Shown one piece after another: positions 1 through 50,152 of a DNA stretch of 64,000 nucleotides (position 1 is its first letter; each line of letters starts with the position of its first letter). Location of the stretch: positions 62,001 through 126,000 of IMG/VR virus record IMGVR_UViG_3300021961_000024, one strand, 5' to 3'. The DNA is from a virus. A program made the position numbers and the translations under genes. The notes below the pieces were generated by a model that was not told the origin of the DNA, ran no database searches, and worked only from the letters and a program-made list of their open reading frames with translations.

Positions 1-2
1 CC

Positions 3-74
3 TGTAACTGCAACAAGTGCTGCTCTGATCCTGTTGTCAAAGAAAATATTAAAGGACTAGATGGAAGGAACTAA
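3..74 (+). CDS. C-terminal end of a cysteine-rich protein, probable radical SAM/SPASM (partial)
   Basis: Only the last 23 codons are in the window. They open with a Cys-rich run (CNCNKCCSDPVV) and end in TAA. Auxiliary-cluster (SPASM) tails of radical SAM enzymes carry such clustered cysteines, and three radical SAM genes follow within 5 kb on the same strand, so I infer a fourth family member. The catalytic CxxxCxxC site lies outside the window, so this is not proven. Confidence 0.45.
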   Translation, partial: CNCNKCCSDPVVKENIKGLDGRN

Positions 75-81
75 GTGAAAG

Positions 82-453
82 ATGTTAGTAAAACATATTG
101 AAAATAGTGATTTTTTTAAAAGAAATTTTTCAGAAGTTTCTAATAGTGATGATTTATTATTGTTTATGATGTGGGGATATTTAACTAACGATAATATCTG
201 TGGGCAGGAAGTAGACGGAGTGGAATTTGATACCCCAGCATTTTATAAAAGTGGGGTTCAATATATTGAAGGTCCGTTAACAGAAAGGTTTGGAGCTGAC
301 AATGTTTCCCGGGTTCTTTCGGAATTTATGACAACTATTAAGAATAAACCAGATACTTCTAAAAATACTGCAGGTGGAAGATCCCGGCAATTATATAATC
401 CTCTTAGCGATCTTTATAGCATTCTTTGGATATGGAGTGAAAAGAATAAATGA
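82..453 (+). CDS. Hypothetical protein, 123 aa
   Basis: Unrecognised soluble protein with no signal peptide or membrane segment. It has an acidic N-terminal half with a hydrophobic aromatic patch (LLLFMMWGYL, about residues 26-35) and a basic linker near residue 100. The ATG lies 8 nt after the stop of the radical SAM tail, and its 3' end overlaps the next gene by 4 nt, so it belongs to the same operon. A role in the radical SAM module is possible but not shown. Confidence 0.6.
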   Translation: MLVKHIENSDFFKRNFSEVSNSDDLLLFMMWGYLTNDNICGQEVDGVEFDTPAFYKSGVQYIEGPLTERFGADNVSRVLSEFMTTIKNKPDTSKNTAGGRSRQLYNPLSDLYSILWIWSEKNK

Positions 454-1010
454 GCTGGACGAAACAGGAAAAGGCTTCTATTATTTTAGAATGCTGGAAA
501 AAATCTTTAGATAGAGCACTGAGAATGGAAGTAGCGGGATCGCCCGTGGGTATGCCCGTATATTTTTTAGCTGAACTTTTAGTAAGAATATATCCTGAAA
601 ATAATGCTTGGCAAGATTTATTAGATAACAAATATGTTGAACATTATGCTATTGCCGGTGCATCGAACATGGCATTACTATTAGAAGATTTTAATGCTTT
701 CGGATTTGATTTTATCGAAGGCGCTGATCCATCCAGTCTAAAAATTGGTGACATGCCTTTATATAATCGTACCGATCCTGATCACATTGGTAGACATACG
801 ACATATCCTGCGATTTATTTAGGTGGGGAAATGTTCCCGAGCTCTATGTGGGGCATTATTAGAATCGAAGATTATGATTTTCCTCCTCATTTAGTTGCAA
901 ACATCTATCCCAATTTCAAAGGAGAAGGCGAATTAATTAATGGTAAATACTGTAGACCCCACGGTCCAGATGATAAAGCCTCATGGGATGAATTTTGGGG
1001 GGATCTATAA
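450..1010 (+). CDS. Hypothetical protein, 186 aa
   Basis: Unrecognised soluble protein. The N-terminal third is helical and charged. The C-terminal half is rich in Gly, Pro and aromatic residues (HIGRHTTYPAIYLGGEMFPSS near residues 113-133), as in beta-rich or virion-associated proteins. The ATG overlaps the upstream stop (ATGA) and its own stop overlaps the next start by one base, which indicates translational coupling in the radical SAM operon. No catalytic motif is evident. Confidence 0.6.
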   Translation: MSWTKQEKASIILECWKKSLDRALRMEVAGSPVGMPVYFLAELLVRIYPENNAWQDLLDNKYVEHYAIAGASNMALLLEDFNAFGFDFIEGADPSSLKIGDMPLYNRTDPDHIGRHTTYPAIYLGGEMFPSSMWGIIRIEDYDFPPHLVANIYPNFKGEGELINGKYCRPHGPDDKASWDEFWGDL

Positions 1011-1381
1011 TGACATTAGTTTCGGATAAGGGTATTAATCAATTAGCTCTTACAGAAGTTAGAGGCTTTTTAAAACCTGGGATGGTAATAGAAGTAGATC
1101 CAGAAACACCATTACCAGATATTTCAGAATGGAATAAGTATGGAGCAAAGATCGTTACAAATAACTTTCTTATTATAATGAGTAAAAAAGAAAATACTAC
1201 TCGAAAGCCTATGCCCGGTACTTTTAATTATGCTGCTGAATGTTGTATGTGGAAAAATAGAAGTTATACCTATACTTTAAAATATGACGGGGTCACTCGA
1301 AGCGAAGTTGAACAATTTCTAACTGATAATGGAATTGAATGGAAAACAAGAGAGTTTGAAAAATATGGAATGGGCGGATAG
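1010..1381 (+). CDS. Hypothetical protein, 123 aa
   Basis: Unrecognised. A longer reading from 995 exists, but the ATG at 1010 overlaps the preceding TAA by one base and follows a G-rich ribosome-binding stretch (about 997-1003), so I prefer it. The protein is mixed alpha/beta with a CC pair near residue 78 (AAECCMWKNRSYTYTLKYDG). It precedes the S74-like fragment with a 17 nt overlap, the kind of arrangement seen where fibre genes and their chaperones are adjacent. Function is unknown. Confidence 0.55.
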   Translation: MTLVSDKGINQLALTEVRGFLKPGMVIEVDPETPLPDISEWNKYGAKIVTNNFLIIMSKKENTTRKPMPGTFNYAAECCMWKNRSYTYTLKYDGVTRSEVEQFLTDNGIEWKTREFEKYGMGG

Positions 1382-1652
1382 ATTATCTACTGTTGGAATT
1401 TACAAATATAGTTATAAAATAGATTCGCCTTTTAGACCGAGACACGAAGAAATCGGTGTACTAGCACATGAATTAGAAAATGTAGATCCTCTTTTAATAT
1501 GGATAGATAGTGATGGTACTAAAAGAGTCGATCATCGAGGATTGGCGGTATTAACATTAAAAGCCAATCAAGAACTTAGACAAGAAGTTCTAAGTTTAAA
1601 ACGTGAGTTAGAGGAGATTAAACTTGCATATAGAAATCAACACAACAAGTAA
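1365..1652 (+). CDS. Stand-alone S74-type intramolecular chaperone domain (tail fibre chaperone remnant)
   Basis: The 95 aa protein reads like the C-terminal autoprocessing chaperone found at the end of phage tail fibres and spikes (peptidase S74 family): an opening DRLSTVGIYKYSYKI, then EEIGVLAHELENVDPLLI, then a DG-x-x-x-VDHRGLAVLTLKA segment, then a terminal coiled coil (ELRQEVLSLKRELEEIK). Normally this domain is fused to a fibre and assists trimerisation before cutting itself off. Here no fibre is attached, and the classic N-terminal Ser-Asp catalytic start is not seen. I chose ATG 1365 over 1329 because the homology starts there. It may act in trans or be a relic. Confidence 0.55.
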   Translation: MEWADRLSTVGIYKYSYKIDSPFRPRHEEIGVLAHELENVDPLLIWIDSDGTKRVDHRGLAVLTLKANQELRQEVLSLKRELEEIKLAYRNQHNK

Positions 1653-2910
1653 ATGTAACTTAAAGTGTACCTATTGTTCTGAAGGCGACGCCTGCGGTTT
1701 ATCTTCTGCTTTTCAGCAACATACTGAATTAAGCGCTGGGGATCTTATCGAAAAGATCAGCGGAGTAGATGATAATGACATTAACATTTACTTCTGGGGC
1801 GGTGAACCCATGATGAATATGAAACTTTGTATGGATGTTATGAAGGGTCTTATGGATGACCGTAGAGTAACATTTATGTTCTATACAAACGGGGTTTATA
1901 TTAAGAAATACCAAAAAGAGTTGCTATGGCTTCGCGATGAGTTTATGAAACATCCTAAAAGAACTCGTCAGCCAAGGCTTCATATCCAGATTTCTTATGA
2001 CGGTGAGCCAATTAATAGTAAAGAGCGTTTGACTACAGGCGGTGTTTCTACTAAATATTCTGCGAATGTAAAAGATTATTTCTTATGGTTAAAAGATAAT
2101 GGGATCAGCGCTTCTCTTAAGCCAACCTTATCAGGGCATAATTTTAAATATATGTATGAAGCCTTCCTCGACTTTCAATCAGTTGGCGAAGATTATATGC
2201 CTACACCGGACGTTCACTCTACTGCGTCGAAAGAAGATCGCGCAGAGTGGTTAAGTGATTTAAAAGTTTCCTTACTTAAAATCGGGCGGCACATTTTAGA
2301 TAATAATATGCGACTTACTACTTTCGGTTGGTTTAGACAATCGAGAGCAAACTGTTCTGCAGGTATCGACGTTATCTCTATTGATCTTGATGGTCAGAGT
2401 TATCCCTGTCACGGGTGTATGTACAGGAACCAAAGCGATCACGCTTTAGGAAATGTAATGAAAGAAGATCTAAATGAAGTCATTAAAGATATGTCCGCAA
2501 AATATAAAAGCTATCTGGATGACTTTAATAAAAATACAGAGGTCTGGTGCAATAGTTGCTCAAGCCCATTCTGTCTAAAATGCCCAGCTTCTTCTTATGA
2601 GAAATCTGCTAAAAAAGAAAAAGGATATGGTACAGCTTGGCAGGATAACCCAGCTAATACCGGCATGTGTTCAGTATTTAAAACCGCTACGCCTATTATT
2701 AATGCGGTGATGGCAGCAAGACCTACTGGACAACCGATGGCCATTCCGCAAACAACTTATCAGTTTGTAGAAGTAGAAGCAACTGATCCTAGATATATTC
2801 AAGAACGTACTGTTCAGAAATCTTCTCCGAATAAAAAACACGTAATGATTCCTGCAGAAGTTAAATCTAGCATTAGTGCTAAAAAAGAATTTGTGATTCC
2901 GGGGGAATAA
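1624..2910 (+). CDS. Radical SAM/SPASM protein, 428 aa
   Basis: Contains the [4Fe-4S]-SAM motif CNLKCTYC (C11, C15, C18) and the SAM-binding GGEPMM stretch near residue 59. A Cys-rich C-terminal region follows (CHGC; then WCNSCSSPFCLKCP; then a final MCSVF) typical of SPASM auxiliary clusters. Such enzymes usually modify peptide side chains or mature enzymes by radical chemistry. About 75 residues follow the last cysteine. The start is TTG with GAGGAG at 1611-1616, and it overlaps the S74-like gene by 29 nt. It is directly followed by a second radical SAM gene. The substrate is unknown; a virion or small phage protein is my inference. Confidence 0.85.
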   Translation: MHIEINTTSKCNLKCTYCSEGDACGLSSAFQQHTELSAGDLIEKISGVDDNDINIYFWGGEPMMNMKLCMDVMKGLMDDRRVTFMFYTNGVYIKKYQKELLWLRDEFMKHPKRTRQPRLHIQISYDGEPINSKERLTTGGVSTKYSANVKDYFLWLKDNGISASLKPTLSGHNFKYMYEAFLDFQSVGEDYMPTPDVHSTASKEDRAEWLSDLKVSLLKIGRHILDNNMRLTTFGWFRQSRANCSAGIDVISIDLDGQSYPCHGCMYRNQSDHALGNVMKEDLNEVIKDMSAKYKSYLDDFNKNTEVWCNSCSSPFCLKCPASSYEKSAKKEKGYGTAWQDNPANTGMCSVFKTATPIINAVMAARPTGQPMAIPQTTYQFVEVEATDPRYIQERTVQKSSPNKKHVMIPAEVKSSISAKKEFVIPGE

Positions 2911-3996
2911 ATGTTTACATTAGAATTATCTACAACGGAACAATGTAACCTTGCTTGTCCTTATTGCTATGTTGTGAATAAACCGACATTTCTTACTAAA
3001 GAGACTTTTGATAATTCCGTAGATGAATTACAGGAATTAATCCGTAGAAGTAATAATGATGAATATGCAGTATCATTCTTTGGTGGAGAACCCATGCTTA
3101 ATTGGGAATTAATTGAGCATGCTACTAAATATTTTAAAAGTGATCCTAAATGTAAACATCTAGTTATTATTACTAATATGACTATGATCGATGAGTATAA
3201 AAGCCAATTTATTGAAGATAATGAAATCTCAATCTCTTGGAGCTTTGACGGCATTGGATCAAATGAGTCAAGACCTTTAATTCGTAACCATAAAGCGAAT
3301 GAAGGGTTTAACGATATTATGGAGATCTATGAAGCCAAAAAAGATCTTGTTCTTAAGCATGGTAGATCCGGTTGTAAAGTTATGATCTATCCCGGTAATG
3401 CGGGAACAATGACCGAGAATTTAGAATTCTTGGTTGATTGGGGTGTATGGAATCCAGATTTCTGTATTGTTCGTGATAATGTTTGGAGAGAAGATCATCT
3501 TAGAACATTCTATCAGGAACTAATTAAATTAACCGATAGAACCATCCAATATTTTAAAGATGGAAGAAACGTTTCGGTTGGATTCTTATCTCTTGCATTA
3601 CAGGATATGACTATCGGTCTTGCAAAAGGTAAAAGACCATTCGGTTGCTTTGCAGGTTATTCCGGTGCGGTTCTAGTACCAGAGGGAAAATTTTATCCAT
3701 GTGCTCGCTTCGCATCTAAAAAGCTTATGCCAATGGATGGTGCTACGTACGATTATGAATATTGGCAAAATGCATTATCAAACTTAAACCATAAAAAGTG
3801 CGATACATGTCGCCTTCGTCAAGTTTGTAATATGGGTTGTACCTATTCACAGATTAATAATAACAATGCGCCAGTCGATTCTGTATGCGAGTTATTTCAT
3901 ATGATTAATGAACAAGCAATGAGATTATTAAGAGAATGTAAATATGAACCTGCATTCCAGGGTTATGTTAGAAATCTAATGAGGAGCATGGGATGA
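2911..3996 (+). CDS. Radical SAM/SPASM protein, 361 aa
   Basis: The CxxxCxxC motif is CNLACPYC (C12, C16, C19), followed by GGEPML near residue 59. The C-terminal SPASM-like cysteines are YPCARF, then CDTCRLRQVCNMGC and a final VCELF. Its layout matches sulfatase-maturase or peptide-modifying radical SAM enzymes. It starts immediately after the previous stop, so the two enzymes are probably co-translated. It diverges clearly from its neighbour, which argues against a very recent duplication. The substrate is unknown. Confidence 0.87.
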   Translation: MFTLELSTTEQCNLACPYCYVVNKPTFLTKETFDNSVDELQELIRRSNNDEYAVSFFGGEPMLNWELIEHATKYFKSDPKCKHLVIITNMTMIDEYKSQFIEDNEISISWSFDGIGSNESRPLIRNHKANEGFNDIMEIYEAKKDLVLKHGRSGCKVMIYPGNAGTMTENLEFLVDWGVWNPDFCIVRDNVWREDHLRTFYQELIKLTDRTIQYFKDGRNVSVGFLSLALQDMTIGLAKGKRPFGCFAGYSGAVLVPEGKFYPCARFASKKLMPMDGATYDYEYWQNALSNLNHKKCDTCRLRQVCNMGCTYSQINNNNAPVDSVCELFHMINEQAMRLLRECKYEPAFQGYVRNLMRSMG

Positions 3997-4298
3997 GACC
4001 TGATCTACCTGTACCAATTCTTAAGAAAGAAGTTATCGATCTTGTACAGAGTACAAAGCAGCTGATAAATAGCATATCAGAGGATGATGCTAGTAAGATT
4101 ATGTCTGCTGAAAAACTGGCTCAAGATTTACAAAATCGAGTGGCATCCAAAAAATTAGCTCGAGTCGATATTACGTATATTAAAGATGAAGAAGTAATTC
4201 AAAACCATCTATATGATTATCAAATTGATTTCACTGAATTTGTAACAAATATGTCGGAGGCTTTAAAAGGTGTCAAACGCCCCGAAAATTCAGGATGA
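3993..4298 (+). CDS. Hypothetical protein, 101 aa, between two radical SAM genes
   Basis: Small soluble, mostly helical protein with a mixed-charge middle (residues about 30-60) and no cysteine. It overlaps the upstream radical SAM gene by 4 nt (ATGA) and the downstream one by 29 nt. Its size and position are those of a substrate-recognition or accessory protein in radical SAM peptide-modification systems, but I see no conserved recognition-element motif. Assigning it as partner or substrate is inference only. Confidence 0.6.
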   Translation: MRPDLPVPILKKEVIDLVQSTKQLINSISEDDASKIMSAEKLAQDLQNRVASKKLARVDITYIKDEEVIQNHLYDYQIDFTEFVTNMSEALKGVKRPENSG

Positions 4299-5166
4299 AA
4301 TTTATTACGATAATAAACATAAAAATGATAAAGAAGTTCCTGATACTGCAGTAAACGTTTTATATTTTACGAATCAATGTAATCTTGCATGCACATATTG
4401 TTATGAGGTATTAGAAGGTCAGCCTAAACAGATTATGACCCGGGCCAAACTAAAGGCTGCTATTGATAAAGCTATTGATAATGAACCAATGGAATCCCAA
4501 ACTTTATTTGTTATGTTTGGTGGTGAAGTAACTCTTGAATGGGAAAATTTATGCTGGTCTATGGAATATGCTACTAGAAAGAAATCTAATGTTCATTTTA
4601 ATGTAGTGTCAAATGGAATTCGTTGGACCAAACCTAAATTTTTCGAGGAATTTAAAAATTATATTGCCGCCCATCCAGAGATTAATCAAAGATCCTCTTG
4701 GGATATTTCATACGACGGCGTAGGTAATAAAGATAGAATATATAGAAGTGGAAAAGAATCTTCTACTGATGTGATTGAAGCTTGTAAATTATTAGCAGGT
4801 TTACCTATTAACTTTAGAATTCGTTATACTATTCAGCAGCATAATTATCATTATTTTGCTCCAGATATTTTACGTATTCAAAAGGCGTTTAATCCAAAAA
4901 GGGTTATTACATCAATCGTAGAATATTTAGATGAAGAACAAAAAGAAGTAGTAAAGGCACAAGCAGATAAATTAAGAGAACTGTGGAATACCGGTAAATT
5001 AGAACATCCTATATGTTCATTTTTCTGTGATACTTGTGATGGTTGTACGGGTAATCATTCTAGAAAAACTTATTACGCTGCTGAAACTTTTGCTACATTG
5101 GGAAATGATGAAAATATGTTACCATTTGACCATTTTATTAAAGAAGGGGAAGTCTTGAATGGCTGA
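4270..5166 (+). CDS. Radical SAM protein with Cys-rich tail, 298 aa
   Basis: A 30-residue N-terminal extension precedes CNLACTYC (C37, C41, C44). FGGEVTLEW near residue 80 is the GGE motif. The C-terminal CSFFCDTCDGC cluster (about 254-264) suggests an abbreviated SPASM or Twitch auxiliary site. I accept the GTG start at 4270 because GGAGG at 4256-4260 is correctly spaced; it lies inside the end of the 101 aa gene. It is shorter than its two neighbours. Probably a peptide- or protein-modifying enzyme; the target is unknown. Confidence 0.82.
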   Translation: MSNAPKIQDEIYYDNKHKNDKEVPDTAVNVLYFTNQCNLACTYCYEVLEGQPKQIMTRAKLKAAIDKAIDNEPMESQTLFVMFGGEVTLEWENLCWSMEYATRKKSNVHFNVVSNGIRWTKPKFFEEFKNYIAAHPEINQRSSWDISYDGVGNKDRIYRSGKESSTDVIEACKLLAGLPINFRIRYTIQQHNYHYFAPDILRIQKAFNPKRVITSIVEYLDEEQKEVVKAQADKLRELWNTGKLEHPICSFFCDTCDGCTGNHSRKTYYAAETFATLGNDENMLPFDHFIKEGEVLNG

Positions 5167-5629
5167 AGAAAATGAAAATTTGGAAGATGAAGATTTTGAA
5201 AATCAAGTTCTTCCGCTTGAAGTAGTAGAACTAATTAGTGATACTATTCAAAAATTTGGAGAATTGAGTAGACACCAGAATAACAAAGCAGCTATCGCCG
5301 GCTTTATGATTCTTAAACATATTGAATCTGCGGTTGATTTGATGAGACATTTTGGACCAGTTGCACAAGTTCCGAAAGCTGGTGTAGATTTTTTAACTAT
5401 TAATAATCCAGCAGATGCACATCAGCAAATGCAAAATTGGCAATCTCAGGGGATGATGACAGATGGTCGTAATCCTAACCAAACTATTTGTAACGATCCC
5501 CCACATCCTCATGTAAATCAACAGGGATTATTGAACGAAGAAGCTTTAAAATATAAAGAATTTCTTGAAGGTACTGGTGGGGAATTTGTCGATGCAGTAA
5601 AAGATTTGGATAAACTGCTAGGAATCTAA
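5159..5629 (+). CDS. Hypothetical acidic protein, 156 aa
   Basis: Unrecognised. It begins with an acidic stretch (EENENLEDEDFENQ) followed by a helical hydrophobic segment (about 20-65). A low-complexity middle rich in Asn, Gln, Pro and His (about 95-125) contains HPHVNQQG. It overlaps the end of the radical SAM gene by 8 nt. The flexible Pro/Asn-rich middle with one Cys could be a modification target, or this could be a small virion protein. I cannot choose. Confidence 0.55.
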   Translation: MAEENENLEDEDFENQVLPLEVVELISDTIQKFGELSRHQNNKAAIAGFMILKHIESAVDLMRHFGPVAQVPKAGVDFLTINNPADAHQQMQNWQSQGMMTDGRNPNQTICNDPPHPHVNQQGLLNEEALKYKEFLEGTGGEFVDAVKDLDKLLGI

Positions 5630-5630
5630 A

Positions 5631-6026
5631 ATGGAAGTCACGCTGGAAGCTGTTAGAATATTTTCTGACATACTTAAAGATATAGATGAAGAAAAAAGAA
5701 AAAGGGTGGTCGATGAACATCGGCACCTTATGGCTGATAGTGCGTATGAAAGAATGTATTATGGATTCCATTATTCTGAACAGGTTAACCCCTATACTGA
5801 AGAAGAATGGATTGCTATGAATCAACCTACCCCGAATACACCGGATCTTGAAACCCCAGATCCTACCCCCGCAGGTGGTAAGTCCGAATTAACTGAGCCG
5901 CAACATAGAAGAGCTACTGGTGATGGTATTCATAACCCGGAACTAGAAGATAATGCTAATTGGATTAAACGTAATCCAGTTAAAACTAGACAAGCAAAAT
6001 TGCAAAGGCAGAAAGATAAATCATGA
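5631..6026 (+). CDS. Hypothetical protein with Pro/Thr-rich linker, 131 aa
   Basis: Unrecognised. The N-terminal 60 residues are helical and charged. A Pro/Thr-rich linker (PTPNTPDLETPDPTPAGG, about 65-82) leads to a basic C-terminus. It begins 1 nt after the previous stop and overlaps the following hydroxylase gene by 4 nt. The proline-rich linker next to a 2OG hydroxylase invites the idea of a hydroxylation substrate, which is speculation. Confidence 0.55.
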   Translation: MEVTLEAVRIFSDILKDIDEEKRKRVVDEHRHLMADSAYERMYYGFHYSEQVNPYTEEEWIAMNQPTPNTPDLETPDPTPAGGKSELTEPQHRRATGDGIHNPELEDNANWIKRNPVKTRQAKLQRQKDKS

Positions 6027-6568
6027 ATCAAATTTGGAGAATGTGGCCAGGCGGCGATGCCGCTATTGTCGATGAAATTGTAGGTATCTGTGAACAATAT
6101 CCATTGGTCGAAGCTGGTATTTCTGAAAAAGGAGTTAAAGCGGATTATAGAAGAAGTGATATTCGGTGGGTAGGCGATCAGGGGATTAAAAATAGACTTT
6201 TAGAATATGCACACCAAGCGAATAGAGCCGCCTTTGGATTTGATATTTCTTATCTAGCCGATATTCAATTTACAACATATACCGAAGAAAAACAAGGTCA
6301 TTATGATTGGCACATTGATACTTTTTGGGATAGCAATTCTAATTATGACAGAAAGCTTTCAGTAACAGTTCAATTGTCAGATCCTAGCGAATACGAAGGC
6401 GGATGCTTTGAACTTGATCCTCAGTATGAACAACCGGATCCTGAACATCTTAAAATGAAAGGAACTGTTCTAGTATTTCCTTCATTTATTCGTCATAGGG
6501 TTACTCCAGTAACAAAAGGAGTAAGAAAATCTCTTGTCGCATGGATAGAAGGCCCCTGTTTTAGATAA
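6023..6568 (+). CDS. 2-oxoglutarate/Fe(II)-dependent hydroxylase (PKHD type)
   Basis: The facial triad and 2OG-binding residue are visible: H97-x-D99 in HYDWHIDTFWD, distal H158 in FPSFIRHRV, and R168 in GVRKSLVAWIEGP. The segment EGGCFEL matches the strand preceding the second histidine in prolyl-hydroxylase-like folds such as the PiuC/PKHD group. These enzymes hydroxylate protein or small-molecule substrates using O2 and 2-oxoglutarate. It closes the accessory operon before the late promoter of gene 13. Six further oxygenase-like genes lie at 55.7-61.7 kb. Confidence 0.88.
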   Translation: MNQIWRMWPGGDAAIVDEIVGICEQYPLVEAGISEKGVKADYRRSDIRWVGDQGIKNRLLEYAHQANRAAFGFDISYLADIQFTTYTEEKQGHYDWHIDTFWDSNSNYDRKLSVTVQLSDPSEYEGGCFELDPQYEQPDPEHLKMKGTVLVFPSFIRHRVTPVTKGVRKSLVAWIEGPCFR

Positions 6569-7361: not shown

Positions 7362-8255
7362 ATGGCAACTAATCCATACTTTAAATACGATGTTAGATCC
7401 GAACAGAATCTCTATGAAGATATAGTCATAGAGAGTCTAAAAATGTATGGACAAGACGTCTACTATCTTCCTCGCGATATTGTAAATGAAGATAAGATCC
7501 TAGGACACGACGTTCCTTCTAGATTTAATTCTTCTTATAAGATTGAAATGTATGTAGATAACGTTGCTGGATTCGACGGAGAAGGTGATCTATTCACTCG
7601 ATTCGGTATTGAAATCCGGGATGCTGCTACGTTTATTGTTGCTAGAAAACGTTGGCAACAAACTATTCAACGTTATGATAATGATATTAATGCTCCTCGC
7701 CCAGCTGAAGGAGATTTACTTTATATTCCTTTCTCGAGAAAGATCTTCCAGATCATGCACGTCGAGCATGAACAGCCATTTTACCAATTAAGAAATCTTC
7801 CAACTTATCAATTACGTTGTGAACTCTTCCAATACAATGATCAAGACTTTGATACTGGCGTTGAAGCTATTGATGCAATCGAGCGCGAGTACGCGTACAC
7901 GTACATGCTTACATTAAATGACAGCGGTCAGGTTGGTACATTTGAACTAGGCGAAATTGCTAATATGGTTCTTTCTTCCGGTATTACAATGTCGGGAGAG
8001 GTTTCAAGATGGAGTGATTCTGATAATAAACTTGGACTTATTCACGTTGGAGCAGATAGCGGTGGATATTCTGAATTTGCTACTGGTCGTACTATTACAG
8101 GCGTCAGTTCTTCGGCGACTGGTACTGTTACACTAGTAGAGGAAGAAGGATTGATTAAAGCTTCATCAACAGTCACCGAGCAAAACGAGTACTTTGATAC
8201 ATTGGTTGGCTTCCTAGACTTCTCAGAAAGCAATCCATTTGGAGATCCACAATAA
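7362..8255 (+). CDS. gp14: Neck protein gp14-like
   Basis: Opens with NPYFKYDVRSEQNLYEDIVIESLKMYG and continues with VYYLPRDIVNEDKILGHD, both hallmarks of T4-family gp14, the second head-completion and neck subunit. Its 297 aa compare with about 256 in T4. The extra length may lie in the Ser/Thr/Gly-rich region at residues 200-260. It sits 5 nt after gp13 and its stop overlaps the gp15 start by 1 nt. Confidence 0.88.
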   Translation: MATNPYFKYDVRSEQNLYEDIVIESLKMYGQDVYYLPRDIVNEDKILGHDVPSRFNSSYKIEMYVDNVAGFDGEGDLFTRFGIEIRDAATFIVARKRWQQTIQRYDNDINAPRPAEGDLLYIPFSRKIFQIMHVEHEQPFYQLRNLPTYQLRCELFQYNDQDFDTGVEAIDAIEREYAYTYMLTLNDSGQVGTFELGEIANMVLSSGITMSGEVSRWSDSDNKLGLIHVGADSGGYSEFATGRTITGVSSSATGTVTLVEEEGLIKASSTVTEQNEYFDTLVGFLDFSESNPFGDPQ

Positions 8256-9016
8256 TGTTCGGGACACACTTTTATCATCAGCGTTTACGTAAATCAGTAG
8301 CAGCCTTTGGGTCGCTATTTAATAATCTATACGTGATCCGTCAGAATTCTTCTGGTAATGTAATCAGTCAAGTAAAAGTTCCTCTTGCATATGCACCAAG
8401 AGAAAAATATCTAGAAAGAATTCGCGCTCAACAAAATCTAGACACTGATCAATCAATTGCTCTTAAACTTCCCAGAATGTCATTTGAGATTACATCTCTT
8501 CAATATGATTCGACTCGTATGGTTGCAAAGACCAATAAGTTTTCTGCATATGATACAGATACGAATAAAAAAGTATTTTATGCTGGCGTTCCTTATAACG
8601 TATTTTTTAGCTTAAACATTTATGCTGATACGCAAGATGATGCTTTACAAATTGTGGAACAAATCATTCCATATTTTAGTCCTCAATATTCTCTATCGCT
8701 TAAACCTTTTGCAAGTTATCCTAATATTAAAGAAGATGTTCCAATTACTATTGTAGGATCTACCTTCTCTGATGACTTCGAAGGTGCTGTAGAAAGCCGT
8801 AGAACTATAACATATACATTAGATTTTGAGATGAAAACTATGTTTTATGGTCCTATCGGTGATAGTAAAATTATTCGCGAAATCCAAACTAATTTTTATT
8901 TAATGGGCGATTCTGATGGTAGAGTAAGTAAGTATACTATAGTACCGAATCCATCAGATGTTGATCCAGATTCGGATTATGGATTTACTATAACTACAAT
9001 TAATGATGTGCCATAG
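8255..9016 (+). CDS. gp15: Tail sheath stabiliser / tail completion protein gp15-like
   Basis: The N-terminus FGTHFYHQRLRKSVAAFGSLF and the central LPRMSFEITSLQYDSTR motif fit T4 gp15, a hexameric ring that caps the top of the tail and joins it to the neck. Its 253 aa are close to the T4 length (272). It is translationally coupled to gp14. Confidence 0.9.
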   Translation: MFGTHFYHQRLRKSVAAFGSLFNNLYVIRQNSSGNVISQVKVPLAYAPREKYLERIRAQQNLDTDQSIALKLPRMSFEITSLQYDSTRMVAKTNKFSAYDTDTNKKVFYAGVPYNVFFSLNIYADTQDDALQIVEQIIPYFSPQYSLSLKPFASYPNIKEDVPITIVGSTFSDDFEGAVESRRTITYTLDFEMKTMFYGPIGDSKIIREIQTNFYLMGDSDGRVSKYTIVPNPSDVDPDSDYGFTITTINDVP

Positions 9017-9024
9017 GAAATGAT

Positions 9025-9387
9025 ATGGAAGATTCTGATAAACAAGTACAAGATGATTTTGAATATTCCCGCAAAGTTTACTTAGATCTAATCGCTACGG
9101 GTCAAGAAGCATTGCAAGGTATGCTAGACGTAGCAGATCAAACCCAGCACCCAAGATCTTTTGAAGTTTTAGGTGGACTAATTAAACACATCAGTGATGT
9201 GAACGATAGACTTATGGACGTACATAAAAAGAAAAAGGATATGCAGAAAAAAGATATTCCTGCATTACCACAAACTACAAATAATTTATTTGTGGGTTCT
9301 ACGGCAGAACTTCAAAAAATGTTATTAAGTAGTAGACAACAAAATGATAATGTAATTGATATAAACGACTATAAGAAAGATGAATGA
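9025..9387 (+). CDS. gp16: Terminase small subunit gp16-like
   Basis: This 120 aa helical protein contains DFEYSRKVYLDLIATGQEAL and ARDQTQHPRSFEV-like segments (actual text VADQTQHPRSFEVL) followed by a lysine-rich coiled region. T4 gp16 (164 aa) has the same plan and stimulates the gp17 motor. It lies between gp15 and gp17 and overlaps gp17 by 8 nt. Confidence 0.88.
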   Translation: MEDSDKQVQDDFEYSRKVYLDLIATGQEALQGMLDVADQTQHPRSFEVLGGLIKHISDVNDRLMDVHKKKKDMQKKDIPALPQTTNNLFVGSTAELQKMLLSSRQQNDNVIDINDYKKDE

Positions 9388-10978
9388 TTCATATAATGGT
9401 AATGCCAGCATTAAAGCAGATGGCGTTATCCATAATTTCACGCAAAGAGAAATCCAAGAATATGTTAAATGTTCTCAGGATGCCAGTTATTTCGCCAGAG
9501 CATACTGTAAAGTAATTTCTCTGGATAAAGGTCTTGTGCCGTTTGATCTTTATCCATATCAAACGGAAATGTTTGACCATTTTAATTCGAATCGATTTTC
9601 CGTTGTTCTAGCATGTCGTCAGTCTGGTAAGTCTATTTCATCTGTAGCTTATCTTCTCTGGTATGCTATCTTTCATCCAGATAAGACAGTTGCTATTCTA
9701 GCCAACAAAGGTGATACCGCGCGGGAGATGCTCGCCCGCGTGACCCTTATGCTAGAAAATCTCCCATTCTTTTTACAGCCTGGTACAAAGGTTTTAAATA
9801 AGGGTTCATTAGAATTTAGTAATAATTCTCGTATCATAGCACGAGCGACTTCTGGTAGCTCGATTCGCGGTATGTCCGTTAACCTACTTTATCTAGACGA
9901 ATTTGCATTCGTAGAACGTGCTACTGAATTCTATACTTCAACATATCCTGTTATTTCATCTGGTAAAGACACTCGCATTATTATTACCTCTACCGCAAAT
10001 GGTATTGGTAATATGTTCCATAAAATATGGGAAAGCGCAGTACAAGGTGTAAGCGAATATAAACCATTCCGAGTTGATTGGTGGATGGTACCAGGAAGAG
10101 ATGAAGAATGGAAGCGGAAGACTATTGCAAATACTTCACAGCTTCAGTTCGACCAGGAATTTGGTAATACATTCTTTGGTACTGGGGATACGTTGATCTC
10201 TGCGGATACTCTTATGTCGCTTAGATCTATGCCTTATAAAATGAGAACCGCAGATGATGTTTTCATTTATGAAGAGGCAATTAAAAACCACGAGTATATT
10301 ATGTTAGTGGATGTTGCGAAGGGAAGAGGTCTGGATTATTCTACTTTTAATGTGATCGATGTAACATGTAGACCTTGGAAACAGGTCGCGGTTTATCGAA
10401 ATAATACTATCTCTCCTATCCTCTTCCCCAATATTATTTATAAGTACGCAACTTCTTACAACGAAGCTTTAGTAATTATTGAGAATAATGATGCTGGACA
10501 ATTGGTATGTAATGGTCTTTATATGGACCTAGAATATGAAAATATGTTTGTTGAGTCTGCGATTAAAGCGAATTCACTCGGCATTAATATGAATAGAAAA
10601 GTAAAACGTATCGGATGTTCGGGATTTAAAGATGTACTCGAGAATAAAAAATTAGAAATCGTAGATCAAAATACAATTCTAGAAATTAGTACGTTTGTAG
10701 CCAAAGGTCAATCCTATGAAGCTAGTGATGGTAACCACGACGACCTAGTAATGAATCTAGTTTTATTTGGTTATTTTATTAGCACTAGTTACTTTGCGGA
10801 TATTACTGATATTAATATTAAACAAATGCTATTTGAACAAAATATGAAAGCCATCGAGGATGATGTATTACCATTCGGATTCATTAATGACAACGAAGAT
10901 GAAATTGCGGCAATCGAACAAGCTCGTAAAAACGATGATTGGGAGTGGGCAATTGATCCAACACATCGAAATTTTTAA
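9380..10978 (+). CDS. gp17: Terminase large subunit gp17-like (packaging ATPase/nuclease)
   Basis: Walker A CRQSGKS at residues 79-85, Walker B LLYLDEFAFVE near 168-178, a coupling motif STANG near 205, and a C-terminal RNase H-like nuclease domain starting with MLVDVAKGRGLDYS. The 532 aa compare with 610 in T4. It pumps DNA into proheads and cuts the concatemer. It is followed by a late promoter for the tail genes. Confidence 0.95.
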   Translation: MNDSYNGNASIKADGVIHNFTQREIQEYVKCSQDASYFARAYCKVISLDKGLVPFDLYPYQTEMFDHFNSNRFSVVLACRQSGKSISSVAYLLWYAIFHPDKTVAILANKGDTAREMLARVTLMLENLPFFLQPGTKVLNKGSLEFSNNSRIIARATSGSSIRGMSVNLLYLDEFAFVERATEFYTSTYPVISSGKDTRIIITSTANGIGNMFHKIWESAVQGVSEYKPFRVDWWMVPGRDEEWKRKTIANTSQLQFDQEFGNTFFGTGDTLISADTLMSLRSMPYKMRTADDVFIYEEAIKNHEYIMLVDVAKGRGLDYSTFNVIDVTCRPWKQVAVYRNNTISPILFPNIIYKYATSYNEALVIIENNDAGQLVCNGLYMDLEYENMFVESAIKANSLGINMNRKVKRIGCSGFKDVLENKKLEIVDQNTILEISTFVAKGQSYEASDGNHDDLVMNLVLFGYFISTSYFADITDINIKQMLFEQNMKAIEDDVLPFGFINDNEDEIAAIEQARKNDDWEWAIDPTHRNF

Positions 10979-10982
10979 ATAT

Positions 10983-10990
10983 TATAAATA
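10983..10990 (+). promoter_or_regulatory. T4-type late promoter (TATAAATA)
   Basis: TATAAATA 5 nt after the gp17 stop and 56 nt before the tail sheath start, with an AAGGAG ribosome site just upstream of that start. It probably drives sheath and tube expression. Confidence 0.8.
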
Positions 10991-11046
10991 ATAGTAATGA
11001 ACATTCTTATGATGATTATACGTATAATTTTTAAGGAGAACATCCA

Positions 11047-12870
11047 ATGGCATTAGGAATTCCTTCCGCTTCTCCTGCAGTAAACTTTAGGGAGATTGAT
11101 CTAACCGGATCAGTTCCTAACCAAGTCGGATCAACCGGCGGTATTGCAGGCAATTTTAGTTGGGGTCCCGTTGCTGAGCCAATCCTAGTTTCAAATGAAG
11201 CTGGTCTTGTATCGGTTTTCGGTGCGCCAACCACAGCAAATACAATTGATTTTCATAGCGCATCATACTTCCTAAAGTATGCTAATGCACTATATGTAGT
11301 TAGAGAAATTGATGGCGATTCGGCAAGCGATGCTAGCGCCAGAAACGCTTACGCCCCAGTTTCTTCGGCAGGCGATGCCGCTACAACTTCCCCACTAGTA
11401 AAGAATAAATCTGATTTCGATATTCAAGACGTTAATCTTGATGATTATTCTGGCGATAGCGATGGCAATGCAGTTCGCGGTCATACACTTATCGCTCGCT
11501 ATCCCGGCACTTTAGGCAATAGCCTAGAAGTTCAGATTTGCCCAGGTGATTCAGATGCTAACGCAGTGTTTAATGCATGGGCTTATAAAAATGAATTTGA
11601 TGGGGCTCCAGGTACATCTGATTACGTAAGTGCTAGAGATGGCGCTTGGGACGAAGTCCACGTAGTAGTCATTGATAAAAACGGAACTATTAGTGGTACA
11701 GCCGGAACTATTTTAGAAAAATATCCATATGTTTCTACTGCATCAGATGCAAAAGATCATGATGGTGATGGTAATTATATTCGAGATATCATTAACGAAA
11801 GATCTAATTATATCTATTTTTCCTCGTTCGGTTCTTCTCTATCTTTCGACAGCGACGAATGGGGTCTTTCATCAAATCTAGGTACTGCTACTACAGCCGG
11901 TTCGGCTAAAACTTATACGAACAATTTGCCAGTTAGAACTTATACTTTAGGCAATGGTGTAAATAGCGGCACTCTAGCTCTTGCAGATCAGTTAAGAGCT
12001 CAAGATAGATTTGAGGATCCTGAAACTCTTTCAGTAGATATTTTAATTGCACCTCCAATGGGTACCTTTAACGATCAAGTGTCTGCCACTAATGATTTAG
12101 TAGCTATTGCCGCTTCTCGTAAAGATTGCATTGTAGTATCATCTACTAATAGAGCCGGTATAATTAACACAGCAAAAGCGGGTATTTCTACTAATATCGC
12201 GCTCTGCGCTAATTCGTTTACTAACTCTTCATATCTTGCTGTGGATGGTAACTTCTTTAAAATTTACGATAAGTATAACGATCAATACATCTGGATCCCA
12301 GCCGCTTCTTCCACTGCCGGCTTAATGGCAGCTACTGATGCAAATGCTGGACCTTGGTGGTCACCTGCCGGTCAAAGCCGCGGCCAATACCTAGGTGTTA
12401 CAGGATTGGCTTGGAACCCCAATAAAACTGAAAGAGATACTCTCTATAAAGCCGGGGTTAACCCTATTGCTACTCTTGTCGGTCAAGGTACACTTCTATA
12501 CGGTGATAAAACAAAACTAAATAGACCAAGTGCATTCGACCGTATTAACGTACGTAGACTGTTCCTCAAGATTGAAAAAGATATCGTAGCATATGCTAAA
12601 ACAGTTATGTTTGAATTCAACGATGAATTTACTCGTTCAGAGTTTACTTCGGTAGTTGAAGCATATCTAAGAGATATTCAAGCTCGTAGAGGTATTCAAG
12701 ACTTCCGCGTCGTATGTGACGAGACGAACAACACTGCTGCAGTCGTTGACAACAACGAATTTATTGCGTCTGTGTTCATTAAGCCTTCTCGGTCTATCAA
12801 CTTCATTACCCTCAACTTCATCTCGGTTCGCTCTGGCGTTTCGTTCGAAGAAGTTGTTGGCAGAGTATAA
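11047..12870 (+). CDS. gp18: Contractile tail sheath protein gp18-like
   Basis: The N-terminus SPAVNFREIDLTGSVPNQVGSTGGIAG (shown here only in part: SPAVNFREIDLT) and the C-terminal core with RINVRRLFLKIEKDI and FEFNDEFTRSEF are typical of T4 sheath subunits. Its 607 aa compare with 659 in T4. The variable middle (residues 80-300) is Asp/Ser/Gly-rich, consistent with surface-exposed sheath domains. It polymerises around gp19 and contracts during infection. Confidence 0.94.
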   Translation: MALGIPSASPAVNFREIDLTGSVPNQVGSTGGIAGNFSWGPVAEPILVSNEAGLVSVFGAPTTANTIDFHSASYFLKYANALYVVREIDGDSASDASARNAYAPVSSAGDAATTSPLVKNKSDFDIQDVNLDDYSGDSDGNAVRGHTLIARYPGTLGNSLEVQICPGDSDANAVFNAWAYKNEFDGAPGTSDYVSARDGAWDEVHVVVIDKNGTISGTAGTILEKYPYVSTASDAKDHDGDGNYIRDIINERSNYIYFSSFGSSLSFDSDEWGLSSNLGTATTAGSAKTYTNNLPVRTYTLGNGVNSGTLALADQLRAQDRFEDPETLSVDILIAPPMGTFNDQVSATNDLVAIAASRKDCIVVSSTNRAGIINTAKAGISTNIALCANSFTNSSYLAVDGNFFKIYDKYNDQYIWIPAASSTAGLMAATDANAGPWWSPAGQSRGQYLGVTGLAWNPNKTERDTLYKAGVNPIATLVGQGTLLYGDKTKLNRPSAFDRINVRRLFLKIEKDIVAYAKTVMFEFNDEFTRSEFTSVVEAYLRDIQARRGIQDFRVVCDETNNTAAVVDNNEFIASVFIKPSRSINFITLNFISVRSGVSFEEVVGRV

Positions 12871-12885
12871 TAGGAGATACCGAAA

Positions 12886-13413
12886 ATGGCTCAAGTTACC
12901 AACGTCTTAGATTTCAAAAAGAAACTAATCGGGGGTGGCGCTCGCGCCAACCTCTTCCGCGCTGAGATTACGAACTCGCCACTAGGTGCGATTTCTGAAG
13001 AATCCAGCTTCCTTATCAAAACTGCAGAAATGCCAGGTTCAACGATTACTCCTATCATTATTCCATTCCGCGGGCGTCAGCTTAAGGTTTCTGGTGATAG
13101 AACGTTTGATCCATGGACTGTTACAGTTATCAATGATGCTAATTTTACCATCCGTAAGTTCGTAGAGCGTTGGATGAGCTTAATTAACAATCATGAAGAT
13201 AACCAAGGTCTAAATGATGGCTATTTCGGTACGCTCAAAGTTCATCAACTGAATCGCGATGGTTCAGATACTAGAAGCTATGAGTTTGTGGAAGCTTGGC
13301 CTTCAGATCTAGGCCCGATCTCAGTGTCGTACGATAACGAAAACCAATTGGAAGAATATCAGATTACGTTCCAGTATCAGTACTGGACTACTCCTGATCT
13401 AATCAAAGGTTAA
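12886..13413 (+). CDS. gp19: Tail tube protein gp19-like
   Basis: The 175 aa protein has tail-tube fold features: SSFLIKTAEMPGSTITPIIIPFRGRQLKVSGDR (in part: AEMPGSTITPIIIPFRG) and WTVTVINDANFTIRKFVERW. T4 gp19 has 163 aa. It lies directly after the sheath gene with a GGAG ribosome site. A more divergent paralogue lies at 20244. Confidence 0.94.
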   Translation: MAQVTNVLDFKKKLIGGGARANLFRAEITNSPLGAISEESSFLIKTAEMPGSTITPIIIPFRGRQLKVSGDRTFDPWTVTVINDANFTIRKFVERWMSLINNHEDNQGLNDGYFGTLKVHQLNRDGSDTRSYEFVEAWPSDLGPISVSYDNENQLEEYQITFQYQYWTTPDLIKG

Positions 13414-13420
13414 TTGGTCT

Positions 13421-13428
13421 TATAAATA
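13421..13428 (+). promoter_or_regulatory. T4-type late promoter (TATAAATA)
   Basis: TATAAATA 8 nt after the gp19 stop. The expected transcription start falls about 13433-13435, exactly at the 5' edge of a 9 bp hairpin, so the gp20 message would begin with that stem. Confidence 0.8.
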
Positions 13429-13432
13429 ATTT

Positions 13433-13454
13433 GGAAGGGCGGAAACGCCCTTCC
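13433..13454 (+). terminator. 9 bp GAAA-loop hairpin (terminator or 5' mRNA stem)
   Basis: Perfect stem GGAAGGGCG/CGCCCTTCC with a GAAA tetraloop between genes 19 and 20. No T-run follows, so it is a weak intrinsic terminator at best. Its position right after the late promoter suggests a 5'-terminal stabilising stem on the portal message. Confidence 0.6.
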
Positions 13455-13480
13455 TAACCCGTGTGATTAAGGAAACAGAA

Positions 13481-15133
13481 ATGGCAGAAAATAGTATTCG
13501 CTTATTTGGCTTTGAGATTAAAAGAGCCAAAGCTCCTCAGAGCGAAAAAGTAGTATCAGTTGTGCCACCTACCGATGAGGATGGTGCAGGCTATGTTACA
13601 GCGTCAGCTTCTGGGATCTATGGACATTATGTAGATATTGATGGTGATCATGCAAAAGATAACCATCAGCTGATCCTAAAATATAGAGGCATTTCGATGC
13701 ATCCTGAAGTAGATATGGCGATTGAAGAAATTGTTAATGAATCTATTTCGGTTTCAGAACTTGAATCGTCTGTTGATCTTGTATTAGATAAAGTGGAAGC
13801 TTCTGACAAGATTAAGAATTCGATGAAAGAAGAATTTGACGATATCGTTTCAATGTTAAATTTTAACGATAATGGTCACGATATGTTCCGCAGATGGTAT
13901 GTGGATGGACGCCTAGTTCACCATATCATCGTAGATCCATCTAATTTGAAGGCTGGTATCAAGGAACTCAGATTTATTGATGCTACTAAGATTCGTAAAG
14001 TTCGTGAAGTTAAATACAAAAAAGATGAATCTACAGGTGCACAACTTGTAAACGGAGTCGAAGAATATTACATCTATCAGGAAAAACCTGGATCAAATAC
14101 AAACAATGCTGTCAAGATGACGCTTGATTCTGTCAGCTATGTTTCTTCAGGTTTATTGGATGAGACACGTAAAAAAGTAGTTTCATATCTTCATAAAGCT
14201 CTTAAGCCAGTTAACCAGCTCCGCATGATGGAAGATTCGCTAGTTATCTATCGTCTCGCACGTGCGCCTGAGCGTCGTATTTTTTACATCGATGTTGGTA
14301 ACTTGCCAAAGAATAAAGCTGAAGAATATCTAAAAGGTATTATGACTAAGTATCGTAACAAGCTTGTTTACGATTCTGAGACTGGTGTTATTCGTGATGA
14401 ACGGAAACACATGTCAATGCTTGAAGATTACTGGCTCCCACGCCGTGAAGGTGGTAGAAGCACAGAGATTACTAGTCTTCCTGGTGGTGAAAACCTTGGT
14501 CAGATCGATGACGTTATCTACTTCCAGAAGCGTCTATATAGATCGCTTAACGTTCCTCTAAATAGACTTGAGCAAGAGTCACAGTTCTCACTTGGTAGAT
14601 CATCAGAGATTACTCGTGATGAGGTTAAGTTCCAAAAGTTTATCGATAAACTACGTAAAAAATTCTCTAAATTGTTCCTAGAGCTATTAAAGAAACAGCT
14701 TGTTATGAAAGGTATAATTACAGAGGAAGATTGGCAACAATGGAAGAATGATATCGTGGTTGATTACATCCGCGACAATCACTTTGCCGAATTAAAAGAA
14801 AACGATATCTTGCGTGAAAAGGTACAGACACTGGATATGGTTAACCAGTATGTTGGTGAATACTTTACTAAAGAATGGGTACTGAAAAACGTATTAAGAT
14901 ATGACGACGACGATATTAAAGAACTAGAGAAAGTGTCTGCTGAAACTGCTGCAGCAAATGATGAAGAAGAACGGAATCAAGCTGCTGCAGCGCAACAAGA
15001 TCAGGACAATCAAATGGCTTTAGCTCAAGCTCAAAGAGAAAAAGAGCAGGCTAAGAATAAAGAGGATCCTAATCATGTGACAATCAGAGGTAATGCCTCA
15101 AATATTGCTAAATTAGTTCAAAATAAACGTTAA
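13481..15133 (+). CDS. gp20: Portal vertex protein gp20-like
   Basis: Has the T4 portal signatures HPEVDMAIEEIVNESI, EDSLVIYRLARAPERRIFYIDVG and MLEDYWLPRREGGRSTEI. The dodecameric portal sits at one head vertex and is the DNA entry and exit gate. Its 550 aa from ATG 13481 compare with 524 in T4. I chose 13481 over 13463 because AAGGAAAC precedes it at correct spacing. The Gln/Ala-rich C-terminus is a likely flexible tail. Confidence 0.94.
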   Translation: MAENSIRLFGFEIKRAKAPQSEKVVSVVPPTDEDGAGYVTASASGIYGHYVDIDGDHAKDNHQLILKYRGISMHPEVDMAIEEIVNESISVSELESSVDLVLDKVEASDKIKNSMKEEFDDIVSMLNFNDNGHDMFRRWYVDGRLVHHIIVDPSNLKAGIKELRFIDATKIRKVREVKYKKDESTGAQLVNGVEEYYIYQEKPGSNTNNAVKMTLDSVSYVSSGLLDETRKKVVSYLHKALKPVNQLRMMEDSLVIYRLARAPERRIFYIDVGNLPKNKAEEYLKGIMTKYRNKLVYDSETGVIRDERKHMSMLEDYWLPRREGGRSTEITSLPGGENLGQIDDVIYFQKRLYRSLNVPLNRLEQESQFSLGRSSEITRDEVKFQKFIDKLRKKFSKLFLELLKKQLVMKGIITEEDWQQWKNDIVVDYIRDNHFAELKENDILREKVQTLDMVNQYVGEYFTKEWVLKNVLRYDDDDIKELEKVSAETAAANDEEERNQAAAAQQDQDNQMALAQAQREKEQAKNKEDPNHVTIRGNASNIAKLVQNKR

Positions 15134-15145
15134 AATTTTAAAATG

Positions 15146-15153
15146 TATAAATA
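15146..15153 (+). promoter_or_regulatory. T4-type late promoter (TATAAATA)
   Basis: TATAAATA 12 nt after the gp20 stop and 19 nt before the gene 67-like start, with AAGGAG as ribosome site. It probably drives the core-protease-scaffold-capsid transcript. Confidence 0.8.
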
Positions 15154-15171
15154 ATATACAAGGAGTATAAA

Positions 15172-15459
15172 ATGAGTGAAATTGAGGATATGATTCAATT
15201 TGTCATGGACGATAACTTTAATAAAGCCAATGACATTTTTAAAAATGCTATTGACGATAAAGTATCGGATGCACTAGAGCAAGAAAAAATTGGTTTAGCT
15301 GCAGACATTTTTAATGGTGGTCGCGTAGTTCAACCCGAAGAGGAAGAACTAGAAGGCGACGAAATTGTAGTCTCCGGCGAGGAAGACGATGAAGACTTTG
15401 AAATTACAGATGAAGATCTAGAAAATATCGATTTTGACGATATTGAAGACGAGGATTAA
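15172..15459 (+). CDS. gp67: Prohead core protein gp67-like
   Basis: This 95 aa protein has an N-terminal helical part (IEDMIQFVMDDNFNKANDIFKNAI) resembling T4 gp67/gp68 core proteins and a long Asp/Glu tail (residues 55-95). Gene 67 in T4 lies between 20 and 21, exactly as here, and its product is cleaved to internal peptides during head maturation. The acidic tail is longer than in T4 gp67 (80 aa), so a fused gp67/68 role is possible. Confidence 0.75.
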   Translation: MSEIEDMIQFVMDDNFNKANDIFKNAIDDKVSDALEQEKIGLAADIFNGGRVVQPEEEELEGDEIVVSGEEDDEDFEITDEDLENIDFDDIEDED

Positions 15460-15463
15460 TTAA

Positions 15464-49795: not shown

Positions 49796-49870
49796 TATAA
49801 GTATGTTTGTAAACGTTGAAGCAACGTGGACACATTCTGGACCTGGGGGCGGTACCCAGCGACTCCACCA

Positions 49871-49953
49871 TAAGCACATCGGTACTAATCAATTATTAGT
49901 TTAGGGCGGATTAGTTAAAAGAATGCATGTTTAACTGCCGGTGTGCTTATGAT
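49871..49953 (+). other. tmRNA intervening segment (removed during maturation)
   Basis: CATAAGCACATCGG (start) pairs with CCGGTGTGCTTATG (end) with one G-U, extending the acceptor stem and holding the two pieces together in the precursor. This matches how permuted pre-tmRNAs are processed in alphaproteobacteria. Confidence 0.8.
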
Positions 49954-50032
49954 GGGGTCGAAATAGGATCGACAGGTGTGAAGATTGAGTGGAGTTTACC
50001 GGATGATCGCGTATAGATCAATTAAACTAAAT

Positions 50033-50071
50033 GCAAACGATAACTTTGCTCCTCTGGCTTTAGCAGCCTAA
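50033..50071 (+). other. tmRNA tag reading frame (ANDNFAPLALAA)
   Basis: Resume codon GCA at 50033, twelve codons, TAA stop at 50069-50071. The ending LAA fits recognition by ClpXP/ClpA and other proteases; the N-terminal ANDN is typical for alpha- and other proteobacterial tags. Confidence 0.88.
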
Positions 50072-50152
50072 GAACTGCTTTTTGCTAAGTGGGTATGGGT
50101 TCCACCTAGAAACAGAACGGGCCCAATTTCTCAAACATAAAGGAAGTCTAAT

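Follow-up and report, generated by a model that had tools for sequence, protein, structure and literature searches.

A run of overlapping or abutting genes, all on the plus strand, occupies the left edge of the window, the 64,000-nucleotide stretch analysed here (G000:62001-126000, where G000 is the whole 157,283-bp virus record IMGVR_UViG_3300021961_000024 of IMG/VR). In the list of open reading frames (ORFs), the run leads from the 3′ end of a cysteine-repeat gene, termed CYS, through three radical S-adenosylmethionine (rSAM) enzymes, termed A, B and C, to a 2-oxoglutarate/Fe(II) oxygenase. Neck and terminase genes lie downstream in the same order as annotated in phage C48C1. The phage is marine and T4-like, with a terminase 72% identical to that of C48C1 and less than 50% identical to those of cyanophages. 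An earlier reading of the bare DNA (the sequence-only reading) had described an overlapping, operon-like arrangement upstream of neck genes, which agrees with the ORFs and with the C48C1-like order. Here CYS, a putative virion tail protein, is considered together with the enzymes that probably mature it.

The sequence-only reading had noticed a Cys-rich partial tail at 3-74, and this turned out to be its most important part. The segment is the 3′ end of a Cys-heptad gene begun outside the window, at G000:61541-62074 (11541-12074 of L011, the locus extract around CYS). The full gene encodes 177 amino acids with 27 cysteines, comprising an N-terminal part, then CLCNCNFCTCNCNF... repeats and the end CCSDPVVKENIKGLDGRN; the protein closes with eight CTCNCNF heptads and a vestige of an S74 tail-fibre chaperone. 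The underlying DNA is a 21-bp tandem repeat of 7.6 copies, whose seven full units vary at six of the 21 positions. All six are third codon positions and all the changes are synonymous, which argues that the amino-acid repeat has been kept by selection. A collagen-like tail-fibre gene precedes CYS.

A degenerate DNA scan of IMG/VR for CNCN[FY]CxCxC retrieved 70 stretches, 56 of them with real CYS proteins. Members of the family have in common an N-terminal part with xRRG and GxxIxAxxxNxL segments and the repeats, which are heptads or octads; often they also show SDERLK..I..., with which an S74 domain begins. The copies of L019 and L020 are short. The 322 CxCxC units of 48 non-redundant proteins give the consensus C-[T218/P43]-C-[N190/D97/Q25]-C-[N293]-[Y244/F53/H14], in which Asn at position 6 is nearly invariant (293/322). 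The S74 domain marks tail fibres and spikes. Several CYS proteins carry it whole, and that of L025 scores above the Pfam cut-off (PF13884, E 3e-8, 34.4 bits). The window's own CYS stays below the cut-off and has the vestige and, separately, a weak S74 ORF (1329-1652), which resembles the second half of the domain and is perhaps the detached remainder of the CYS C-terminus. In the predicted structure of the L026 protein the N-terminal helices and the S74 domain are confident, and the Cys stretch has a predicted local distance difference test score (pLDDT) of about 40. A fold search matched the S74 part of this model to viral tail models; when the CYS model was compared with the PDB, no match had an E value below 0.7. 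CYS is likely to be present in the virion tail.

Neither Pfam nor NCBIfam holds a model of the CYS family; the sole PHROGs model, phrog_26958, is annotated as of unknown function and represents the Campylobacter phage version. A scan of 84,980 prokaryote genomes returned only three matches, so the family looks phage-borne. A possible Gram-positive representative was seen on a 146-kb Clostridium rectalis contig that is listed as viral in IMG/VR too (L088; NZ_UYZZ01000009, 1596-3339), where a 142-aa Cys-repeat protein adjoins a 434-aa rSAM enzyme.

The three rSAM genes that the sequence-only reading had placed next to each other are real. The Pfam Radical_SAM model (PF04055, cut-off 29.5 bits) scores 33.3 bits in A, 44.9 in B and 41.8 in C, and the CxxxCxxC and GGE motifs it had picked out are invariant in alignments of 16-18 homologues per enzyme. 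The SPASM-like nature it gave to all three applies to A, which alone exceeds the cut-off of PF13186, and probably to B, which has seven conserved cysteines and no PF13186 match, but not to C. Conserved cysteines number three plus seven in A and B, the SPASM pattern, and three plus four in C; since only four of the seven C-terminal cysteines are kept, C is not a full SPASM enzyme. Among NCBIfam models, PapB NF047865 ranks first for each of the three (69.5 bits for A, 150.8 for B and 62.2 for C; cut-off 340). Behind it come other rSAM families, for the most part peptide maturases, with cyclophane maturases among them. The best PDB profile match is CteB 5WGG (E 4e-24 for A, 1e-34 for B and 1e-20 for C). 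Subfamily searches had been proposed as a check on the sequence-only reading, and their best matches are thus the peptide maturases PapB and CteB. In the NCBIfam and PHROG searches no best match was to QueE or another nucleotide-metabolism enzyme, the outcome that would have spoken against the sequence-only reading; the QueE-like phrog_2076 reached only E 0.0003-0.003, with peptide maturases far better. A QueE or auxiliary metabolic gene function for A, B and C was rejected because the peptide-maturase matches are far stronger.

Two small proteins, D and E, accompany the enzymes. D has a conserved HLFxYxxDFxxFL motif and homologues at the same position in most A-B-C cassettes; its AlphaFold model is helical and of low confidence (pLDDT 65). 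A protein at the E position occurs in 20 cassettes and has a ...DDYEKFLA...LDFL tail, to which the window's E is weakly similar (9-22%). The sequence-only reading had noted these two proteins, and a third beginning at 5631, between and after the enzymes. CYS is the likelier substrate; cysteines are few or absent in most homologues of D and E. No protease or exporter was noticed in the cassette.

The association of CYS with A, B and C was evident in a forward test, in which profiles of the three enzymes were run over all ORFs of the CYS loci. Of the 56 CYS contigs, 44 encode one or more of these enzymes on the strand of CYS and no more than about 5 kb away from it. A-B-C-CYS is the commonest gene order; BCA-CYS, CYS-ABC (the window's order) and others also occur. 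Most of the remaining 12 contigs are cut by the contig end or by the stored flank, and in L062 and L088 a different 434-aa rSAM enzyme adjoins CYS. Four contigs (L032, L045, L044 and L195) hold two to four copies of CYS with a single enzyme set. At the level of whole records, 41/44 CYS phages carry rSAM genes, usually 3-16 each, compared with 3/22 terminase-related T4-like control records (one to three each); the Fisher p is about 1e-10, a value that serves only as a guide because the records are related. None of the 78 terminase-relative loci contains A, B or C. The nearest terminase relatives (89% identity, L104 and L090) have other genes at the cassette site, suggesting that the cassette is an exchangeable island.

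The reverse test gave the same association. IMG/VR was scanned with the B alignment alone (A4); CYS is absent from this query, but the alignment was built from CYS loci, so that the test is not fully independent. At a threshold of at least 158 bits for B, 48 loci were obtained, many of them already in the forward scan and about a dozen new. By rule, a neighbouring Cys-rich protein on the same strand was identified in 41 of the 48, and two more (L200 and L211) were recognised on reading. The other five are L169 with a broken CYS, L197 (the dispersed CPt10 genome), L180 and L204 at contig edges, and L191, which is unexplained. The control loci contain 1089 ORFs of 100 aa or more, of which the same Cys-rich filter selected three. 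A scan of viral contigs with a single B sequence found no confirmed relatives; the alignment-based scan did find them. In L169 (12665-12880), CYS is broken after 71 residues beside an intact A-B-C, either by an assembly error or by recent decay.

Weaker B homologues are paired with A and not with C (L199, L200, L205, L206, L208, L212, L216 and L245). A homologous tail protein with a variant motif, for example CICNTDCSCNNVCACHNDCDCNYSDERLKENI, then follows, and D and E differ in these A+B-only systems. Because C is absent from the systems with the CNxDCxC motif, it may carry out a motif-specific step. Other Cys repeats stand beside a B-like rSAM enzyme in three loci, L215 and, with CTCTCTCTC, L236 and L241. 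In L215 (IMGVR_UViG_3300042922_000542, 7548-15557), several rSAM genes surround a CQCNCDNCDCDCDRCSC-repeat protein and a 551-aa protein with 52 cysteines, apparently a further Cys-repeat/rSAM system with a different motif. In L241 (5965-6540) and L236 (9362-9925) a tail-region protein ending CECTCTCTCTCTCTC...CSECDCGD adjoins the B-like enzyme; in L241 a large tail-tip-like protein is encoded upstream of it, and another rSAM-like gene comes after it.

Cultured phages carry the same genes. Fifteen Campylobacter phage records, including CP220, CPt10, CP21, IBB_35 and CC_R7, encode a 534-aa CYS. In CP220 this protein is YP_009169314.1, encoded at 160932-162536, and its heptads are of the CDCNY type. 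In CP220 and CPt10 an A homologue lies 2.2-2.3 kb downstream of CYS, and B and C (191 bits) lie elsewhere. Timms et al. (2010) counted 11-12 rSAM genes per genome and proposed a metabolic benefit to the host; they separately noted a 21-bp repeat within one coding sequence and did not connect the repeat protein with the rSAM enzymes (PMC2853527). The GenBank record places that repeat in the CYS gene. The CYS gene of IBB_35 (apparently 3-9) is unmentioned in the main text of the IBB_35 publication. In the open-licence literature we found no prior description of the CYS motif or of rSAM enzymes acting with phage structural proteins.

Taken together, the genomic linkage, its specificity in both directions, the enzyme class, the dense conserved cysteines and the tail-protein features make it probable that a dedicated phage cassette matures a virion tail protein and that CYS is its substrate. 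In the mechanism we propose, CYS would consist of an N-terminal helical structural part, C-[TP]-C-[NDQ]-C-N-[YFH] repeats and an S74 domain that many phages have, either complete or as a vestige. A, B and usually C, which presumably divide the labour, would reductively cleave S-adenosylmethionine, as their conserved CxxxCxxC and SPASM cysteines suggest, and act on the repeats; D and E would probably serve as delivery or chaperone subunits. The bond most likely to be made would join a Cys sulphur to a carbon of the neighbouring Asn or Asp, giving PapB-like thioethers, and the product would be a covalently stapled, rigid and redox-stable element of the tail. For thioether chemistry on CYS we consider the chances about even. 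The wider proposal that in many phages two or three rSAM enzymes staple the Cys repeats of a tail protein into a thioether lattice, each variant (CNCNY heptads, CNxDC, perhaps CTCTCT and CDCDRC) having its own enzyme set, might equally well prove right or wrong. By analogy, the cassette would work like a maturation system for ribosomally synthesised and post-translationally modified peptides (RiPPs). The sequence-only reading had suggested as much, with either a small peptide or a virion protein as the target of the radical chemistry; the peptide-maturase matches and the two-way linkage with CYS support it for the virion protein, and the small proteins become less likely substrates.

Several observations weigh against this proposal. 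None of the three enzymes comes anywhere near the curated cut-off of any maturase family. In most members the three enzymes have no fused RiPP recognition element and no long N-terminal extension able to house a recognition domain, and the helical, low-confidence model of D does not look like such an element either. Enzymes with [4Fe-4S] clusters are oxygen-sensitive. In the L039/L042 lineage CYS is followed by other genes, with no rSAM gene in the 0.9-1.6 kb left on the contig, and many CYS phages carry additional rSAM enzymes of other kinds. CP220-like phages have the genes for A, B and C dispersed instead of in one operon, and CYS is not among the 11 bands identified on the CP220 virion gel (PMC2853527).

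The enzymes could instead act on the CYS repeats without forming thioethers, by Cys-Tyr/Phe or cyclophane-type C-C links, by epimerisation or by oxidation of Cys or Asn, possibly with a different reaction for each enzyme. The aromatic residue at position 7 is nearly as conserved as Asn-6 (Y244, F53 and H14 of 322), the architecture of C is unlike that of A and B, cyclophane maturases are among the NCBIfam matches, and systems with the variant motif CNxDCxC do without C. We nevertheless regard such chemistry as rather unlikely, given that the characterised enzymes closest to A, B and C are without exception Cys-thioether maturases and that dense cysteine is the sole feature common to all substrate variants. 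CxCxC repeats could also bind metal, and the T4 gp37 needle holds metal ions along its tip. The Cys repeats might be an unmodified metal-binding or disulphide needle, with the rSAM enzymes merely co-located and directed at a glycan, a host metabolite or one of the small proteins D and E. These two proteins are conserved next to the enzymes, and other rSAM enzymes occur with sugar-type genes in the same phages. This is improbable: both search directions show a linkage that is specific to A, B and C, multiplied CYS copies share a single enzyme set, most of the D and E homologues are poor in or free of cysteine, and in A+B systems D and E differ yet the Cys-rich tail protein stays.

It is very improbable that A, B and C are auxiliary metabolic enzymes that benefit the host or the phage when oxygen is low, a role put forward for CP220 on the strength of the 11-12 rSAM genes of each Campylobacter phage (PMC2853527). 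Peptide maturases are the closest matches of the three, which accompany a structural-type protein in phages that are not related to one another, and the QueE-like rSAM enzyme of CP220 is encoded by a gene separate from them. We give hardly any credence to a chance neighbourhood, in which tail-fibre hot spots would accumulate both mobile rSAM genes and Cys repeats of low complexity with no functional bond. The site by the tail-fibre and neck genes is indeed variable, as the other genes of the close relatives L104 and L090 attest; against this stand the same strand and fixed family identity in 44/56 contigs versus the triad in 0/78 terminase-relative loci, and the purifying selection on the repeats.

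If true, maturation of CYS by A, B and C would be the first case, within the literature searched, in which radical SAM enzymes mature a protein of the virus particle. It would account for the noted and unexplained abundance of rSAM genes in Campylobacter and other large phages, and would give PHROG 26958 a function. It would also make available, together with its enzymes, a cross-linked protein material that is natural, repetitive and perhaps highly stable, bridging phage biology and peptide-modifying enzymology. The proposal is directly testable in culture because CP220 and CPt10 carry CYS, A, B and C.

Table 1. Genes of the run at the left edge of the window (window coordinates).
Feature	Position	Strand	Basis
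CYS 3′ end: last heptads, CCSDPVVKENIKGLDGRN, stop	1-74	+	ORFs of L011, 21-bp tandem repeat
Hypothetical 123-aa protein between CYS and A; accessory or unrelated	82-453	+	ORF only
Hypothetical 186-aa protein	450-1010	+	ORF only; family searches without match
Hypothetical 128-aa protein	995-1381	+	ORF only; family searches without convincing match
107-aa S74-like protein	1329-1652	+	Pfam S74 17.3 bits (cut-off 22); PHROG tail fibre, best E 1e-8
rSAM enzyme A, 428 aa, TTG start; radical SAM and SPASM	1624-2910	+	PF04055, PF13186, alignment A3
rSAM enzyme B, 361 aa; radical SAM with seven-Cys SPASM pattern	2911-3996	+	PF04055, PapB model, alignment A4
Protein D, 101 aa; small, conserved, between B and C	3993-4298	+	Homologues at same position
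rSAM enzyme C, 298 aa; radical SAM core and four-Cys C-terminus	4270-5166	+	PF04055, alignment A5
Protein E, 156 aa; small	5159-5629	+	Place of a ~125-aa helical protein after C elsewhere
Hypothetical 131-aa protein	5631-6026	+	ORF only; family searches without convincing match
2-oxoglutarate/Fe(II) oxygenase, last gene before neck genes	6023-6568	+	PF13640 E 5e-16; PHROG 61

Among the other genes of the run (Table 1), the 123-aa protein has no homologue in the other cassettes read. The 2-oxoglutarate hydroxylase named in the sequence-only reading matches PF13640, and the gene was not seen as a conserved part of the cassette. The whole 157-kb record has nine rSAM genes, not three. The six others form a cluster left of the window (G000:36057-47415; L010:6057-17415) that includes sugar-type genes and a NodU-like carbamoyltransferase; two of the six score above the NF033640 twitch-domain cut-off, a third scores below it, and one resembles B12-binding HpnJ-type enzymes. 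Several other phages (L022, L043 and L074) have extra rSAM genes of a similar kind at a distance of 2-4 kb from CYS. A UDP-glucose-6-dehydrogenase-like gene is found just upstream of the cassette in L019, L021, L205 and L208, and near B in CP220 (14033-14803). A transfer-messenger RNA gene at 49755-50127 of the window matches the alphaproteobacterial model RF01849 with 125 bits, which suggests an alphaproteobacterial host or gene source.

Of the known systems, PapB/PapA also pairs a SPASM-type rSAM enzyme with a repeated-Cys peptide, and it supplies the nearest NCBIfam model for A, B and C. In each substrate PapB links several cysteines to Asp or Glu residues, with spacings of 0-6 residues being accepted (PMC9413430), which makes Cys-Asn or Cys-Asp links in CxC[ND]CN plausible. 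The PapB motif is CX3D/E and that of CYS is CxC[NDQ]CN[YFH], a mismatch that leaves similar chemistry possible because PapB tolerates the 0-6 spacing in vitro. PapB further differs in being one enzyme where the cassette has two or three, and the putative substrate of the cassette is a phage tail protein with no known leader, its enzymes having no known fused recognition element. The solved structures closest to the A, B and C profiles are those of the SCIFF maturase CteB (5WGG, 5WHY; TIGR03974). CteB is a thioether-forming rSAM enzyme that acts on a six-Cys peptide. The match begins only at about residue 100 of CteB, and the preceding N-terminal region, its recognition domain, is absent from most A, B and C proteins; the SCIFF peptide itself is small, clostridial and unrelated to CYS. 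The CXXX-repeat rSAM system (TIGR04115) likewise dedicates an rSAM enzyme to a Cys-repeat target, and B matches it with 79 bits; this lies below the cut-off of 350, the spacing is CxxxC instead of CxCxC, and the target is not a virion protein.

The Campylobacter phages CP220 and CPt10 resemble the window phage in having CYS and homologues of A, B and C, and differ in the dispersal of these genes. The S74 endosialidase chaperone family (PF13884) is shared in that several CYS proteins end in it; the Cys repeats are not part of S74, and the window copy and many others retain only a short SDxxLK..I-like vestige. As is typical of RiPP systems, the gene of a ribosomally made, Cys-rich protein, here the presumed substrate, adjoins those of the modifying enzymes. 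The cassette is not classed as a ranthipeptide system because the scores lie below the cut-off, the motif differs and no recognition element was found. No described system in which rSAM enzymes modify a virion structural protein was found in the open-licence literature; for readers who count it so, the cassette would be RiPP chemistry on an unusual substrate.

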